A stretch of DNA of 47,282 bases, from contig CANQLR010000021.1 of assembly GCA_947624745.1 (NCBI GenBank), positions 1 to 47,282 on the forward strand. The letters are read 5' to 3'. This stretch comes from an uncultured Clostridia bacterium. GTDB lineage: Bacteria > Bacillota > Clostridia > Oscillospirales > Ruminococcaceae. The notes under the pieces are model-generated. The model was not told where the DNA came from, did no database searches, and saw nothing but the letters and a program-made list of their open reading frames with translations. Positions 1-7,111 of this stretch are shown piece after piece. The translations under genes were made by a program, and so were the position numbers. The first letter of the stretch is position 1; each line of letters opens with the position of its first letter.

Positions 1-401
1 TCCGAGAGCTGCTGTTCCATGAGCTTTTTCTCGGCTTGAGCGTGGTAAATCTCCGTCTTGTGGCGCTCGTTCCAATCGGTCGCAAAATCGGCGTAAGGCC
101 TCTTAATCGCCGAAATTACGGGGGATTTCTTGGTACTCGGTTCGGCAATAATCAGCGAATCGAGAACGAGAGGTTCGGTGTGGTCGCTCTTGCCCTGCAC
201 CCGATATACTCCCGAAAAGCAGTAGCTCAACGAGCTTAAAATCGCGGTGGCAGCCATAGCCGGGTCGGTCGAAGTGCTGACCGCAAGTGCCTCGGCAAAG
301 TCCTTGAGGACAGGCGGCAGAGCTGCGACGGGAAAAGGCGAGAGCCGCGCACCGTTCGCACGGATCGGGGTCGGAGTCTGCCAGTTGATGTTTTGTTCCA
401 A
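1..401 (-). CDS. DUF3987 (YfjI-like) protein, 5' part only
   Basis: This reverse-strand frame stays open from position 401 to the window edge, so only the first ~133 residues are visible. I chose a TTG start at 399-401: an in-frame TGA lies seven codons upstream, and a GGAAG-type ribosome binding site sits about 10 nt before the TTG. The translation contains a segment reading roughly FPVAALPPVLKDFAEAL, then TDPAMAATAIL, then a run ending in TKKSPV. These match the beginning of DUF3987 proteins, where the last piece belongs to a Walker-A-like GxRKSP loop. DUF3987 (YfjI-like) proteins are common on prophages and integrative elements and are thought to act in replication initiation or helicase loading; that role is family knowledge, not visible here. 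The gene diverges from the next one and marks the left side as mobile-element DNA. The rest lies outside the window. Confidence 0.6.
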   Translation of the reverse strand, partial: MEQNINWQTPTPIRANGARLSPFPVAALPPVLKDFAEALAVSTSTDPAMAATAILSSLSYCFSGVYRVQGKSDHTEPLVLDSLIIAEPSTKKSPVISAIKRPYADFATDWNERHKTEIYHAQAEKKLMEQQLS

Positions 402-492
402 TGTTCTGTTTTCTTCCTTTCATTTTAATTTCAGGCGGTTTTTTCCGTCTGTAATTTCAGGATAGCATTTCTTTTTTTGCCATGCTCGGACA

Positions 493-573
493 TTGCGTAT
501 GTGCGCAAACAAATACGCAAACTATTCTTAAATACGCAAAATCATTGACAAATTGCGTATTTTATGATAAGAT
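493..573 (+). promoter_or_regulatory. Promoter with four TTGCGTAT operator half-sites
   Basis: A TTGACA (545-550), 17-nt spacer and TAAGAT (568-573) precede the gene at 600. The 8-mer TTGCGTAT occurs at 493-500 and 553-560 on the plus strand, and inverted (ATACGCAA) at 513-520 and 532-539. One copy lies inside the promoter spacer, so a bound protein would be expected to block RNA polymerase. The sites form two inverted pairs with 12- and 13-nt spacing. The regulator is not identified. Confidence 0.7.
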
Positions 574-599
574 AGAACAAAACAACAGGGGGCGACGAC

Positions 600-1616
600 A
601 TGAAAACCGTCACGATTTACCGCATAAACGAAACAGACCGCACGATTGACATCGCACAGTCTGTTAATCAAGATAATGAAAGCGTTCGGGCGGCTATCCT
701 GAACGCGAGGACATTTACTTTTGATGAGATTTTACGGCAGCACCTTGCATTTTGCGACAAAGAAGCATTGGTCGAAAACTGCCGAAACAGGTTTTTGAGC
801 GCACTGCACATAGGGAGAAGTGTTCCCGTAAATGCCGATGATATGCTTGCGGGATTCACTGCGGAAAACGGCGAAAATATCTTTCTGCGCGGCATGATGA
901 CGGCGGCTCACGAGCTTTATGACGGTGAGCGGACGGCTCTATCGACCCCGAACGATGTCCTGCTCGCCACGCTCAACAAAAGCAGGATTCAAGCCGAGAT
1001 TTCCGCGAAAATCAACACTTTTTTTGACAGTAATTTTGCGGCAGTCGGCGACGCGGCATATTTTGAATGTGGGCAGAAACTGAACGCCTTTTCAGTTATA
1101 CCTTCCGAAACGGTTATTTTTTGCGATGATTACACGTTCAGCGCGTTTCGTGTATGCGATAATTGCTTAACCAATTTACTTTTTGAGCTTGGGCAGATAG
1201 TGCATCGAAATGCCCTCAGCCCCCGAAAATGCGGCTTTTGCGGGAAGATGTTCCTCGGGATAGAAGAGGAAGTCTGCTGCCGGCAGGCGTCCTGCCAAGC
1301 TGCCCACAAGGAGCAAAAAGAGGCAATCTACAAGGAGCACACCGAGGAGTATTCGCAGATAAAGCGCACCTATGACGCGTTCGTCAGGCGGTATGACGGT
1401 TATCTGAAAGCGGCGGGGATAAATGCGCGCTGCCCTGCGGAATACGACGAGTTTTGCCAAGCGAAAGAGGTTCGCAAGGCGGAGATGAACAGCCTTAAAA
1501 AGCGACTGATACGCAACGGACTGCCGACTGACGAGCTTTATGAAATGGGGGAAAAGTTTAAGGCGGAAATTCGGGCGATTGCGGAGGGGATAATGGAGAA
1601 GTGCGGAAACAAATAA
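600..1616 (+). CDS. DUF6076-like zinc-finger protein of unknown function
   Basis: A 338-residue protein starting at ATG 600, with an AGGGGG ribosome binding site 8 nt upstream. The only strong sequence signal is a C-terminal treble-clef-like finger, CGFCGKMF followed by CC and then C (residues ~203-227), which resembles the finger in DUF6076 and CGNR-type proteins. It is followed by a highly charged helical tail (KEQKEAIYKEHTEEY) and a basic C-terminus. The first ~190 residues are not recognisable. Genes of this type occur in integrative elements and defence islands of Clostridia, and here it sits between a DUF3987 gene and a restriction-modification locus. It has its own promoter with operator half-sites, so it is probably tightly controlled, perhaps by an element-encoded regulator. 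A nucleic-acid-binding role is inferred from the finger only. Confidence 0.6.
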   Translation: MKTVTIYRINETDRTIDIAQSVNQDNESVRAAILNARTFTFDEILRQHLAFCDKEALVENCRNRFLSALHIGRSVPVNADDMLAGFTAENGENIFLRGMMTAAHELYDGERTALSTPNDVLLATLNKSRIQAEISAKINTFFDSNFAAVGDAAYFECGQKLNAFSVIPSETVIFCDDYTFSAFRVCDNCLTNLLFELGQIVHRNALSPRKCGFCGKMFLGIEEEVCCRQASCQAAHKEQKEAIYKEHTEEYSQIKRTYDAFVRRYDGYLKAAGINARCPAEYDEFCQAKEVRKAEMNSLKKRLIRNGLPTDELYEMGEKFKAEIRAIAEGIMEKCGNK

Positions 1617-1640
1617 CAAGGCGTAAAGCGTTTATCCTCG

Positions 1641-1668
1641 TTGACATTTCGGATTTTCATGGTATAAT
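1641..1668 (+). promoter_or_regulatory. Promoter of the methylase gene
   Basis: TTGACA (1641-1646), 16-nt spacer and TATAAT (1663-1668) preceded by TGG, an extended -10 element. It lies 33 nt before the methylase ATG and probably drives the whole restriction-modification locus. Confidence 0.75.
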
Positions 1669-1700
1669 TATTATGTATAATTGTAAAAAGAGGTCGAGCA

Positions 1701-2576
1701 ATGAGATATATTGGCGGCAAAAGCCTTCTGACGGATAAAATCTGCGGCGTCATCAACTCGGAGATACCGAGGGTGTCGTCGGCGATTGATATATTTGCGG
1801 GCTCGGGAGCGGTTTCGCAGAGCTTCAAAAAAGCGGGATACAGAACCGTCAGCAACGACTTTCTGTATTTCAGCTATGTCATGTCCTATGCGTCGGTCGT
1901 GCTGAATAAAAGACCGAGTTTTCGCAATCTCGGCATCGCCGACCCGATAAAATATCTCAACGCGCTAAAGCCCGAAAATACCGACTTTAGACCTTCGGAA
2001 TGTTTTATCTACAGCAATTACAGCCCCGTCGGGGACTGCGAGAGAATGTATTTTCAACCCGACAATGCGCTTAAAATCGACGTAATCAGGCTGACCGTCG
2101 AGGAGTGGAAAAGCGAGGGGCTCATCGACGATGGCGAATATTTCTATCTTATATCTGCGCTTCTGGGCGCCGTTCCGTTCGTCGCGAATATCGCGGGGGT
2201 CTATGCGGCATATTTCAAATTCTGGGACAGCCGAACATATAAACATCTCGATCTTACGGAGCCTGTTATCATTAACAACGGCAGGAAAAACGAGAGCTAT
2301 AATCTTGACTATACGGAGCTTCTTTCAAAAAGGTTTGACTTGATGTATGCCGATCCGCCGTATAACTCTCGGGAGTATCTTCCGAATTATCATATTCTTG
2401 AAACGATCGCGAGATATGATTATCCCGAGATACACGGAGTTACGGGTATGCGGGAATACGGCAGGCAAAAATCGGTATTCTGCAAAAAGAACACGGTTCG
2501 CGAGGCTTTTGAAACGCTTATCAGGGATTGCAGGAGCGTGGTTGTTCAAGCCGATAATGCATTTAAAGCCGCATGA
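1701..2576 (+). pseudogene. M.FokI-like D12-class adenine methylase, N-terminal domain only
   Basis: The 291-residue product resembles the first of the two D12-class N6-adenine methyltransferase domains of M.FokI. It begins MRYIGGK, has AdoMet motif I DIFAGSG (Asp30), and catalytic motif DPPY (218-221). The blocks NYSPVGDCERMYF, FYLISALLGAVPF and NYHILETIARYDYPEI are typical of that domain. Homology stops abruptly near residue 275. Instead of the strand that normally continues as a SYSSEG-like block, there is a short unrelated tail and a stop. M.FokI is about 650 residues with a second methylase domain, which is absent here. The gene is therefore truncated at the 3' side, and the enzyme would at best methylate one strand of an asymmetric site; more likely it is inactive because the fold is incomplete. 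The junction lies about 60 bp before the HNH gene, consistent with replacement of the missing part. Confidence 0.75.
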
Positions 2577-2636
2577 TAAGCTGATTACCGAAATGCAAAG
2601 AACTAAAATTTACAAATAATTCAAGGAGGAGTGTTT

Positions 2637-3371
2637 ATGCCTAACGGTGTCAGTTATCTGTCCGAAATAGTATCTGCATTGTCCGAACTCGGGGGCATGG
2701 GTTCACTTCGAGAGATTACAGAACGCATCAAAAACCGTGGATTGTTGGCTTCTATTCATTCAAACAAAAACTGGCGGAATAATGTCAGGGCAGTTATCCA
2801 ACGGCATTGCAGTCAGACGCAATCATATCGGGGCGCAGAGGATCTGTTTTATTCGGTATACGGTCTCGGTGAGGGATATTGGGGATTACGCTCCATGCAG
2901 AATACCGACATCGACATAGCCGACGCGGTAAACCCGATAATACAGCGTGAAATCGGCGAGATAAATGAAAGCACAAGCCTTGACATCACCGAAAAGGAGA
3001 TGATAATTAAGGCAAGAGTGGGGCAGGGATTATTCAGGGATAGGATAATTCAAAAATACAAGATGTGCGTCGTCACGGGGATAGACGATGCAAGGCTGCT
3101 CACCGCAAGTCATATAAAGCCTTGGCGGTCAAGCAACAATGCTGAAAGGCTCAGCTCGGAAAACGGATTGCTGCTGTCTCCTCTGTATGACAGGCTTTTT
3201 GACAACGGACTCATAACATTTGACAACAGGTTAAATATTATTATTTCAAAGGAAATTTCCGAATATAACAAGGGAAAGATAGTGCGCGAAGTTCACATGC
3301 GCAATTTCACTATGTCGGCAGAGATGAAGATCAATCTTGATTATCATAGAGATGTGATTTTTAAGGGGTAG
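2637..3371 (+). CDS. HNH restriction endonuclease with N-terminal winged helix
   Basis: A 244-residue protein; start chosen at ATG 2637 because an AAGGAGGA ribosome binding site (2623-2630) is spaced 6 nt from it, better than the in-frame GTG at 2631. Residues ~1-80 form the winged-helix domain common in restriction endonucleases (VSYLSEIVSALSELGG, then a WRNNVRAVIQRHC helix and FYSVYGLGEGYWGLR). Residues ~130-215 are an HNH_2-type nuclease: CVVTG at 144-148, the catalytic ASHIKPW with His159, then NGLLLSP and DRLFDNGLITF. The C-terminus YHRDVIFKG looks like the natural end of this family. It therefore appears complete and is the only intact nuclease gene of the locus. It separates a truncated FokI-type methylase from a truncated FokI-type endonuclease, so it probably arrived by recombination from another restriction system. 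Its own methylase is not present. Confidence 0.75.
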   Translation: MPNGVSYLSEIVSALSELGGMGSLREITERIKNRGLLASIHSNKNWRNNVRAVIQRHCSQTQSYRGAEDLFYSVYGLGEGYWGLRSMQNTDIDIADAVNPIIQREIGEINESTSLDITEKEMIIKARVGQGLFRDRIIQKYKMCVVTGIDDARLLTASHIKPWRSSNNAERLSSENGLLLSPLYDRLFDNGLITFDNRLNIIISKEISEYNKGKIVREVHMRNFTMSAEMKINLDYHRDVIFKG

Positions 3372-4787
3372 GTAAGCGCCGATTCCTTCCTCAGATGGGC
3401 TGTAAGCATAGGCTTTCTCGACTATGACCGCCAAAAGGACACTTGCAGGATAAGTCCTCTCGGGCGGAGCTATGCCGATTCGGCAGACGGCAGCGTTGAG
3501 GAAAGAAAAGTCCTGACCGAAGCGTTTTTGTCCTATCCCCCGATATGCCGCATACTCGGTCTGCTTGAAAGCGGAGAAACGATGACAAAATTCGAAATAG
3601 GCTGTCAGCTCGGGTTCGTCGGAGAGGCGGGATTCACATCTATTCCTCAACACCTTATTCTTCAAGGCTTAAGCGTTGCCGCGTCAACCGAGGAGCGCAA
3701 CAAGCTCCTCACCGACACTGAGGGTACCTCGGATAAATATGTAAGAACGATATGCTCGTGGCTCAAAAGCGTCGGATGGGTCGTTCAGGTTCCGAAAGAG
3801 GTCAAGGCTGATTTGGGCTATACGGTCTACACCGACACCATCGCCCAGTCCTACCGCATCACGCTTGAGGGCAAGAAGATTTTGAAATACTCGGTCGGTG
3901 CTTCAAAGTTCAGGCGCATTGACAAGCGCATAATGTGGGATATGCTTGCGACAAAACCGTCGGACAGAAATTATCTCAGAAACAGAAGGACTTATCTCAT
4001 AAAGTATCTGGTGACCGACTACCGTACCGCCGAGGAAGCTGCGGAACATCTCAAGACAAAGGGCATGAGTGAGGACATAGGAACGGTTCTTGACGATATT
4101 CAGGGTCTGATGAACATAGGCATAAACATAAGAAAAAGCGGCGGAAAGTTCCGAATCACCGACAGCATAATCGGTCTTGATATTCCGAATATCGCCGCCT
4201 CGGAGCATACCTCAAAATCCGACGTTACGCTTCTTAAGGACAGCGTTCGCGGGCGGCTTAATCATATCAACCACAAATATCTTGTGCTTATCGATCTCGG
4301 GTTTGACGGCAGCGCGGACAGGGAATATGAGCTCCAGACTGCTGACCTGTTTACGGGTGAGCTCGGCTTCAGCGGCTCGCGGCTCGGCGATTCAAGAAAG
4401 CCCGACGTCTGCGTATATCACGGAAACAAAGGGCTTATCATCGACAACAAGGCATACGGCAAGGGGTATTCCCTGCCCATCACGCAGGCGGACGAAATGC
4501 TGAGGTATCTCGAAGAAAACCACAAGCGCGATAAAAATCTGAACCCGAACGAGTGGTGGAAAATCTTTGACAGCACCGTCAACAGCTTTAATTTTGCGTT
4601 CGTTTCGGGAGAATTTACTGGCGGATTCAGGGACAGGATTCTGAACATCAGCCAGCGGTCGTCAATTAACGGCGCAGCGATAAACTCGGTCAACCTCCTG
4701 CTCCTTGCCGAGGAGATTAAGTCGGGCAGGCTGAGCTACGCCGACGCGCTGGGTAAGTTTGAGTGTAATGATGAGATAATAATTTAA
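3372..4787 (+). pseudogene. FokI-like type IIS endonuclease, 5'-truncated
   Basis: The reading frame is open from 3372, directly after the HNH stop codon TAG, and similarity to FokI begins at once: SADSFLRWAVSIGFLDY, SADGSVEE, SYPPICRILGLLESG, TKFEIGCQLGF, SGESGFTS-like GEAGFTSIP, and KRIMWDMLATK. The cleavage domain is complete, with SRKPD (Asp345 counting from 3372), IIDNK (Asp358, Lys360), YSLPITQADEM, and NPNEWWKIF. FokI has 583 residues; about 470 remain here, and the first ~110, most of recognition subdomain D1, are missing. The only start in the usual place is a TTG at 3528 without a clear ribosome binding site, which would remove more of the recognition domain. I read it as a remnant whose nuclease domain is intact but whose target recognition is probably lost. 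Upstream sequence is in the same frame as the HNH gene, separated by one stop. Confidence 0.85.
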
Positions 4788-4801
4788 CTGAGAGGTGTAA
4801 T

Positions 4802-6442
4802 ATGAACGACGTTCAACCGGGTGCGATATCGCTCCTAAAAAATTGGTTTGAGAAAGCTGAAAAATGGCAGAAAGACCTTTTTTACCGTTTATGGCACGGA
4901 GACGACGATACAGAAAGGCTTATTTCAAGGGCATTCAGCCTTGCAAAGGCGGAATATCTCGGAGAGACGGGAAAATTTGCTCCATCGGTCGATTTTCCGA
5001 CCGAGATAAAGCTTTCGTCCTCGGAGGGCTGCCCTGTCATTTTAAAAAGCATATCGGAAGTTCAGGACGTTGGCGCATTGGCTCCGACAAAGCCTTTGGA
5101 GTTCGGAAATAACCTCACCATAGTATACGGCGAAAACGGCTGCGGAAAGTCGTCTTATGTCAAAATACTAAAGAGCGCGGTATCGCCCAAAAACTCAGTT
5201 GAAATTTTAGGAAATATCTATAAAGAGAGCGAAGCGAAGCCAAGAGCAATGTTGACATACAGCGACGACGGCAGTGAGAGAAATATTCCTTGGCGCCCGA
5301 ATCTTGACAGCAACTGCCCGCTGAATATTTACGATTCATCGGTGGCGAAAAGATTTGTCGAAGAGAAAAACGAGGTCGTTTATGAGCCGCATGCACTGTC
5401 AATGCTGTCGGCTATGGCGAGGGTGTACGAAGGTGTTAAAGAAAAGTTTGAGGACTTGAAGAAGGAAAATTCGGCTCTCATGACCAAGCCCGATGAGGCA
5501 ATTTCTGCACAGAAATCAGTGAGCGCTTTTCTTAATCTCAATTCGCTCAAACAATTTGATAATTTTATTTCGGAAATTATCTGGACGGAAAAGGAGCAGA
5601 CGGAGCTTAGCATGCTTCGGGAAGATTTAAAAGAACAGGACCCCGCGCAAAAGCTTAGGGAGCTTAAATCTCAGAAGGCGTTTATCGAAAAGCGGTTTGA
5701 AGAGTTGGCGGCTTTAATCGCAAAAACGGGAAACAGCGCGAGCGAGAAATATTTAACCTTGCGGCAGGCTCAGATAGACGCCAAGAATGAGGCGGACAGG
5801 ACGATAGACGGACTGAAAAGCGTTTCGTTGTTAAACCGTACAGGCTCTGATAAATGGAAAACAATGTGGTCAAATGCGGTCAATTATGTAAAGGACGCGG
5901 GCATCGAATCTGCCGACAGCATAGTCGTTGACGGCAAGTGCGCTTTGTGTCAGCAAAATCTTTCTGAGGACGCTCTGAAACGCATTGAAGAATTTGCAAA
6001 ATACGCATCATCTTCGGCTATAAAGAAAGCGGAAAAAACTCTTAACGATTTTGATAAATCAAAGAACGAAATTCAAGACATATATAGGAATATAAATACA
6101 GAGAACACCGAAAGCACGCTTAGAGCTATAAGCTTGCCCGATGATTTGATCAATTTTATTATTTCGGTATGTAAAACAGCCGCGTCAAGGTGCAAATGGC
6201 TTTTGGAATACACAAGCGACGTAAAGACTGAAATCCCCAAATTTGTCGAGCTAAAGGCTTTGCAGGAAGTAAAGGACAGATATATATCCGCTTATGACAG
6301 CAGAATAGAATCGCTTAAAAATCTCATCGAAAACAGAGAGGAGCATATAAAACGGGTAAACGACCTTCTGACTGCAAAATGGATAAACGAGAATATAATA
6401 ATGAAAAACACGCGGAACTTAAACTTAAGTTGGTTGAGCTGA
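4802..6442 (+). pseudogene. AAA ATPase (RloC/PrrC-like family), N-terminal fragment
   Basis: The 546-residue frame starts at ATG 4802, 14 bp after the FokI-like stop, behind a GAGAGGTG ribosome binding site. It has the N-terminal W-x-x-x-W-Q-K-D leader of restriction-associated AAA ATPases, a Walker A loop GENGCGKSS (residues 110-118), long coiled coils, and a zinc-hook-like CALC (Cys380/Cys383) in the middle. This is the layout of AAA_13-type ATPases such as RloC and PrrC. The ABC signature, Walker B and D-loop that should follow the second coiled coil are absent. Instead the frame changes composition after NDLLTAKW and stops. The C-terminal family block reappears in another frame immediately downstream (6379-6891). 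I infer an internal deletion of about 150-200 residues plus a frame change, leaving no working ATPase. Confidence 0.7.
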
Positions 6443-6891
6443 GAAACAGTCCGTTGGGAGAGCCTTCCGAGCTTCAATATATCGGCTCGGCAAGCATAGA
6501 TAAGGCTCTCGGCAAACTATCCGACAAAATTCCCAGACTCAAAAAGCTTCAAAAAGAAGGAAGCTATGATGAGTACGACAACGGCATAAAATCGTTGTGT
6601 TCGGATCTCAGAAAAGCCGTAGAGCACGGAATAGAGACGGATCTTCTCAACAATATCGTCATGCGTTTCAGACCTTCGGTACAATCGCAGAGATTAAGAT
6701 ATCTAAAGATTGTTACGAACGATGATGTCGCCTTGTTTGACAGCATGATGACAAAATATTCCGAATATGAGCACTCTCAATCCTTGGAGCGACCGGTAAG
6801 TTTGCCGGAATTGAGCGATATAGAGAATGATATTGACCGCCTTAAAAAGTGGCATGAAGATTTTGCGAGAAGGTGTAAAGTGGTAGACTAA
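6379..6891 (+). pseudogene. C-terminal fragment of the same AAA ATPase
   Basis: This 170-residue frame overlaps the previous one by 64 bp. Its sequence matches the conserved tail of restriction-linked AAA ATPases: a helical stretch ending in LLNNIVMRFRPSVQSQRL, then a conserved acidic segment, MMTKYSEYEHSQ, a PVSLPEL segment and a final helical block. This tail normally follows the Walker B half of the ATPase core, which is missing. No good ribosome binding site precedes the ATG at 6379. It is probably the remnant 3' end of the 4802 gene and not an independent gene, although translation by reinitiation cannot be excluded. Confidence 0.65.
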
Positions 6892-7111
6892 AAGAAGACG
6901 TGATTGTATTTTAGCAGAGATATGCCATGTGGTAATGTTGTTGGTCAACCTTTGGTCAACAAAGCTGCAAAAAGACGCAAAAAATTAGGAAAAGTCGGGG
7001 AAAGCGAGTTACCTGTCGTTTACGCTATCACGGCGCGGTTTGGATACGCAAGTGAAAATAAAACAAGTTGCGCGAAATGATAGTTTAAACTCGAAGAGAT
7101 AACCCATCCCC

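Follow-up and report, generated by a model that had tools for sequence, protein, structure and literature searches.

Replacement of the middle of a FokI-type restriction-modification operon by a putative modification-dependent HNH nuclease gene

The FokI-type restriction-modification locus described here lies at positions 1701-4787 of the forward strand of a 47,282-nucleotide stretch (contig CANQLR010000021.1 of assembly GCA_947624745.1) from an uncultured gut bacterium of the Ruminococcaceae; the whole stretch is referred to as the window. The middle of this operon has been replaced by a gene for an HNH endonuclease, and the replacement is a real and recent one, belonging to a repeated series. 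Its product probably cuts methylated DNA, and the presence of related genes in other broken methylase loci of related bacteria suggests that the gene and the methylase cannot coexist in one cell. Our preferred interpretation, to which we give a probability of about 0.6, is that 2637-3371 encodes a stand-alone methyladenine-dependent (type IV) nuclease, which would be lethal beside an active N6-methyladenine (m6A or 6mA) methylase. We infer the methyladenine specificity from the identity of the displaced methylases and from remote homology.

Organization of the locus

On the forward strand the locus consists, in order, of a truncated M.FokI-type methylase domain (M1), an intact HNH gene and an N-terminally truncated FokI restriction endonuclease (REase). 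Residue numbers of M1, of the second methylase domain (M2) and of the REase are those of the intact locus L208, and L003 is the corresponding locus of a sister species, both described below. The following features were identified.

1701..2540, + strand: remnant of M1, the first M.FokI-type D12 adenine methylase; DPPY motif present, residues after about 280 of 342 gone; its open reading frame (ORF) runs to 2576
2541..2630, + strand: leader of about 90 nt; no homology found to the FokI locus and none convincing to the L003 leader
2637..2906, + strand: N-terminal domain of the HNH protein, winged-helix-like through remote similarity to the DpnI/HhiV4I-type winged helix (wH); weak HARE-HTH and Forkhead matches
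2940..3368, + strand: predicted HNH_2 nuclease domain, VcaM4I-like; H159, N176, D185 and D189 correspond to VcaM4I H224, N241, D250 and D254
3369..3371, + strand: HNH stop codon (TAG); FokI homology starts 6 nt downstream
3378..4787, + strand: FokI remnant with the end of D1, D2, D3 and the cleavage domain with its catalytic residues; residues 107-575 of 575

The first-pass annotation had recognized here an M.FokI-like first methylase domain that stops early, a complete HNH endonuclease and a FokI-like body lacking about 110 N-terminal residues, and all three parts were recovered. M1 (ORF 1701-2576) matches PF02086 (E 3.5e-37), which makes it a D12-class adenine methylase, and is 74% identical to the intact M1 of L208 over residues 2-280 of 342; about 62 C-terminal residues are lost, and the final 12 codons of the ORF are foreign. 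The HNH ORF (2631-3371, with the likely ATG at 2637) matches HNH_2 (PF13391, E 4.3e-14) and is full-length when compared with its relatives. The FokI frame is open from 3372 and homologous to the solved FokI from chain residue 103 or 106 (E 2.8e-113). It lacks residues 1-106, i.e., most of D1, and retains D2, D3 and the cleavage domain, in which Asp345, Asp358 and Lys360 of the PD...D-x-K motif are exact, counting from 3372; its first possible start codon is TTG at 3528. This remnant is judged to be debris, and the truncated methylases and REases in general are judged dead.

The two complete D12 domains of a FokI system are not present, as M1 ends at 280 of 342 and M2 is absent at the locus. 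No second PF02086 match above the cut-off was found in the whole genome (2.57 Mb in 100 contigs), and FokI occurs at a single place in it; relocation of M2 or of the FokI start to another place in the genome was rejected on this ground. An assembly artefact is also unlikely, because the layout recurs, with breakpoints of its own, at L003 of a second species, whose genome was assembled independently.

Intact relatives and independent replacement in a sister species

The ancestral state is represented by L208 (genome G208, same family but another genus), which carries intact M1 (347-aa ORF), M2 (282 aa) and R, the REase (575 aa). In both L208 and the window, M1 is preceded by the same two kinds of genes, which we take to be DUF3987- and DUF6076-like. 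In L002, on a contig of a metagenome-assembled genome (MAG), M2 and R are complete and M1 extends past the contig start. The proposal that an HNH gene took the place of a segment reaching from the M1 end across M2 to the beginning of FokI is borne out by these relatives, L208 being a full methylase-FokI locus with the same upstream neighbours.

The sister species of the same genus (L003, genome G026) shows the three-gene layout at the same site with different truncations: M1 ends near residue 134, upstream of the DPPY motif, and the FokI homology picks up again only at residue 215 of 575, part of D2 being missing. Identical truncations shared by distant strains, which would have counted against the proposed replacement, were not seen. 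Between the window and L003, the HNH proteins are 82% identical, with a silent-site divergence (dS) of 0.74 and a ratio of amino acid-changing to silent divergence (dN/dS) of 0.13. For the shared parts of M1 and FokI, dS was 0.196 and 0.212, and dN/dS 0.10 and 0.065, respectively. The silent-site divergence of the HNH gene is thus about 3.5 times that of both flanks. The G+C content of the HNH gene (0.44 in the window, 0.42 in L003) is the lowest of the three in both loci (FokI, 0.51 and 0.50; M1, 0.48 and 0.47).

The excess of HNH over flank divergence, together with the different breakpoints, indicates two recent and separate replacements of an intact L208-like locus. The low dN/dS of the flanks indicates that selection was acting on the two FokI loci throughout most of the time since they diverged, and that the truncations are recent and independent, two different HNH alleles having entered; the value of 0.065 for the FokI body reflects selection preceding the two truncations. 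A single ancestral insertion followed by deletions in the flanks was rejected on the same data, the HNH genes being about 3.5 times more diverged than the flanks and the FokI body, over a dS of 0.21, not being pseudogene-like. The HNH gene itself is under purifying selection. With its recurrence in methylase wrecks, this makes simple decay, one of the two outcomes first considered for the locus, too weak a description.

When window positions 1-7102 were compared with L003, HNH excluded, identity was 82% up to about 868 and then 91-95% until the match ends at 7102, as if about 868-7102 had been exchanged between the species. The gene after FokI (4802-6891) matches PDC-S06, a candidate defence family of PADLOC. 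In the window it is broken into two frames and, compared with the 862-aa L003 gene, lacks about 485 bp near 6394.

Recurrence in other broken methylase loci

The HNH protein or its profile was used to search 396 family-sample, 31 genus, 394 order-sample and 391 class-sample genomes, in overlapping sets. Homologs at least 53% identical across both domains were found in five genomes (window, L003, L037, L068 and L177), which span two bacterial families. All five genes lie in the remains of D12 adenine methylases (two FokI-type, two AlwI-type and one solitary methylase), and all five share the orientation of the broken operon. The three loci outside the FokI type are composed as follows.

L037: AlwI M1 1-180 of 353, one other gene, HNH, AlwI REase from 425 of 658
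L068: solitary-type D12 methylase cut at 114 of 328, HNH; no REase remnant found
L177: 26-residue AlwI M1 scrap (E 8.9e-5), HNH, AlwI REase from 246 of 658

The AlwI identity is based on PF09491 (E 2.5e-45, L037) and on locus L205, itself labelled AlwI through that likeness. In a sixth locus, L050, AlwI M1 is cut at 267 and the AlwI REase resumes at 49; the intervening gene, frameshifted in this assembly, has an N-terminal domain 37% identical to that of the window and a nuclease of another HNH type, assigned via likeness to L047 (PF01844). By these assignments, what varies among the loci is the nuclease; the kind of system that was hit and the reader-like domain are the same throughout.

The methylase breakpoints are scattered (about 114, about 134, 180, 267 and 280, with one locus retaining just a 276-301 piece), and site-specific homing was rejected on this account. 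The 5' edge of the replacement varies from about 20 nt up to a whole gene. At the 3' edge, REase debris starts 6 nt (window), 2 nt (L003) or 78 nt (L177) after the HNH stop and overlaps the last nuclease codons in L037 and L050, all of these being tblastn edges accurate to a few codons. In four of the five debris-bearing loci, across two HNH types and two REase families, the distance to the nuclease stop is no more than about 10 nt.

No intact methylase adjoining HNH was seen at any of the five full-length homologs, using ORF lists and tblastn with seven methylase/REase references, family-library scans not covering every neighbour. As a control, 128 HNH-homolog loci were inspected, eight of which had any match to these references; with the case loci L050 and L051 removed, 6 of 126 remained (L071/L205, L095, L096, L126, L144 and L148), the first three of which were inspected further. 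Some places in this set are represented two times, some of its loci bear a wH, and for many the flank is just about 1.5 kb. A Fisher test on the association with wrecks (6/10 vs 0/119) used hand-judged counts and is not relied on. A weak match across parts of both domains in G814 (positions 35-241, 52 bits) is control locus L087, with no methylase match. The N-terminal domain joined to the other HNH type occurs without a wreck in L047, L220, L221 and L222, so that one of the five loci examined in this class has a wreck.

The HNH proteins of L220 (5989-6618), L221 (5986-7008) and L222 (5989-6618), with a related N-terminal domain, are from Ligilactobacillus salivarius and Priestia plasmids, and the approximately 12 kb around each gave no match to the methylase/REase references. 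The gene between the methylase stub and HNH in L037 (6760-8118) has a C-terminal HTH and presumably an AlbA-like start. In L005 (3955-4392), from another Clostridiales MAG, there is a FokI remnant with an apparent internal deletion and no such HNH among the listed ORFs, indicating that FokI loci also decay without replacement. Finally, at L205 (4077-8049) and L071 (4837-6411) an intact-looking AlwI system is followed about 3.8 kb downstream by a 524-aa HNH protein with what we take to be an EVE-like start; here a further enzyme of modification-dependent appearance coexists with an m6A system.

As to the source of the HNH gene, viral contigs gave no relative with the HNH, FokI or N-terminal queries, and a four-sequence HNH profile found there only HNH-domain relatives at up to 53% identity (best 80 of 100 matches). 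Phages gave no FokI relative, and HNH-domain or chance matches only with the HNH queries; plasmid matches were below 60% identity. A phage or plasmid source was rejected for lack of a close relative in these collections.

Domains of the HNH protein

The closest solved relative of the HNH domain is that of VcaM4I. The four residues listed above align to those of VcaM4I at one constant offset, and they are invariant in a 12-sequence alignment. VcaM4I is described as an enzyme dependent on 5-methylcytosine (5mC) or 5-hydroxymethylcytosine (5hmC), in which H224, N241 and D250 are the HNH-motif residues and D254 binds metal; activity was severely reduced by the substitutions H224A, D250A and D254A, and the effect of N241 changes was mild (PMC7897488). 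In its motif residues, the predicted nuclease domain of the window agrees with the modification-dependent HNH endonucleases of the VcaM4I/TagI group.

The N-terminal domain, about 88 aa long, is also found in L041 and L042, before NTPase domains that we take to be McrB-like and beside presumably McrC-like genes. This architecture resembles the fusions of an N-terminal domain (NTD), wH and NTPase that have been described (PMC11037411). A 12-sequence profile of the domain aligned with a three-sequence profile of the DpnI-type wH (E 5.9e-5, 0 of 200 shuffles), and in a comparison with 45 single targets the highest score after self was that of a DpnI-type piece from Lactiplantibacillus (26.1), followed by HhiV4I (20.9). 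On this comparison the domain appears remotely to resemble the DpnI/HhiV4I winged helix that reads N6-methyladenine.

Contrary evidence and alternative explanations

Several findings weigh against a methyladenine-dependent nuclease intolerant of adenine methylases. As to the reader, the best Pfam hints for the window domain were HARE-HTH (E 0.037) and Forkhead (E 0.069); a role in reading cytosine marks has been suggested for HARE-HTH (PMC11037411). None of the scanned members matched DpnI_C (PF17726) at E values up to 10, under HMMER filters that drop most matches above 0.1; HhiV4I and a DpnI fragment do match this family. Among the single targets, HhiV4I scored hardly more than an unrelated ORF of the window (20.8), and the top 20 did not include the DpnI fragment. 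AlphaFold models of the N-terminal domain were all of low confidence and none was reliable; the full model gave weak winged-helix matches, the isolated domain none. DpnI was not among the structural matches, an absence that carries no weight.

As to coexistence, three proteins of the window genome match PF01555 (N6/N4 methylase). A second clear D12 methylase is present in two of the five carriers, G026 (328 aa, DPPY; L202, 4843-5829) and G749 (249 aa, presumably phage-like), and G007 has a marginal 22-bit D12 match. Among the 28 non-carrier members of the genus, 11 have any D12 match, and carriers showed no depletion of D12 methylases relative to non-carriers. The methylase that remains intact in G026 shares 58% identity over 114 residues with the broken fragment of G749. 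G026 is a direct puzzle, unless its solitary methylase acts on another target or modifies a single strand.

The absence of depletion also accords with turnover of a defence island, which requires no incompatibility: an ordinary HNH restriction gene of any specificity would have displaced its neighbour by illegitimate recombination, the methylase being lost by location. L003, L037 and L177, as we take it from their neighbours, lie on mobile-element-like DNA, and FokI has decayed without HNH in L005. Such turnover could partly account for the wrecks. As the whole explanation it is possible but rather unlikely, since all five two-domain HNH genes are in D12 loci, in FokI, AlwI and solitary contexts and in two families, and just 6 of the 126 other HNH-homolog loci, many of them short and some duplicated, have a methylase/REase match.

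It is less likely still that the HNH protein reads a cytosine mark, as VcaM4I does and as proposed for HARE-HTH, the link to adenine methylases being historical. The cytosine specificity of the enzyme with the closest solved HNH domain (PMC7897488) favours such a reader, and the absence of any match to PF00145 (C5 methylases) in the window genome fits it too; however, all six broken systems have D12 (adenine) methylases, and the N-terminal profile aligns with the DpnI-type wH.

A nuclease pair or fusion of new specificity, the other outcome first considered, in which HNH and the FokI body cooperate, e.g., by readthrough of the TAG codon, would accord with the kept catalytic residues and with the FokI frame being in phase after the HNH stop in the window, but is highly improbable: D1 is mostly gone, there is no start codon before TTG 3528, the remnants of L003 (without part of D2), L037 and L177 (both AlwI) are out of phase with HNH, L068 has none, HNH alone recurs at the broken loci of other systems, and the low dN/dS of the FokI body is explained by selection before the two truncations.

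Discussion

Under the interpretation of a methyladenine-dependent nuclease, the predicted winged-helix-like reader and the VcaM4I-type HNH nuclease would together form a modification-dependent enzyme that cuts at N6-methyladenine in fully methylated ApT sites, e.g., GGATG (FokI) and GGATC (AlwI). A FokI-like system is reported to place 6mA at both GGATG and CATCC (PMC5608340, PMC4081073), and AlwI methylases to modify GGATC and GATCC at the positions that Dam methylates (PMC4081073); both should yield fully methylated ApT flanked by G or C. The DpnI winged helix (structure in PMC4117772) is described as reading fully methylated ApT with relaxed Sm6ATS flanks (PMC11037411), and an enzyme with such a reader would therefore kill a cell carrying a FokI or AlwI methylase. 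Cells with an active cognate methylase would die, and the survivors would be recombinants that have lost it, as in the window, where M1 is without its end, M2 is gone entirely and the REase lacks its start. A single event breaking methylase and REase together would allow safe loss of the restriction-modification system. It has been noted that the methylation of one system may be lethal with a modification-dependent enzyme targeting that mark (PMC12707154), and PD-(D/E)XK-wH enzymes are reported beside frameshift-inactivated methylase genes (PMC11037411).

The principle of a methyl-dependent nuclease replacing a methylase is already known. In Neisseria, drg (NmeBII/Drg), the DpnI-like product of which cuts GmeATC, stands in place of an adenine methylase gene; drg and dam states are reported as mutually exclusive, drg having replaced dam (PMC516771, PMC4269198). 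Unlike drg, which replaced a solitary dam, the wH-HNH genes replaced parts of type IIS methylases and REases, several times and with variable breakpoints. In Streptococcus pneumoniae, the methyl-dependent REase DpnI likewise alternates at one locus with methylase-protected systems (DpnII, DpnIII), but these are described as alternative cassettes (PMC12707154), whereas here the displaced system was left as truncated debris, its source being FokI and AlwI type IIS systems. The size and the wH-then-HNH order of the HNH protein agree with those of the wH-HNH 6mA-dependent endonucleases of 224-283 aa (PMC11037411), and HhiV4I also has HNH_2; its N-terminal domain, however, falls outside DpnI_C by Pfam and is similar only at the profile level. 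VcaM4I (EVE-HNH) shares the HNH domain and the four motif or metal-site residues, but its reader is an EVE domain for 5mC/5hmC instead of a winged-helix-like domain. In the open-licence literature, mostly seen as listings, no description of repeated type IIS operon replacement by a wH-HNH gene was found.

As a tentative and rather doubtful extension, the wH-HNH gene might be a self-establishing replacement cassette for adenine-methylase systems. On arrival it would attack the methylated chromosome, and the breaks would both select for and help to create recombinants with the cassette in the methylase gene. The 3' edge of such a cassette is nearly fixed, and its 5' edge is variable.

If the preferred interpretation is correct, the wreckage would be a natural record of the DNA mark that a nuclease cannot tolerate, and the specificity of an uncharacterised type IV enzyme could be read from the methylases that it destroyed. 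The principle of drg/dam and DpnI/DpnII would extend to type IIS systems through repeated parallel events, a methyladenine reader would exist outside the DpnI_C family, and these replacements would represent one route for shedding an addictive restriction-modification system.
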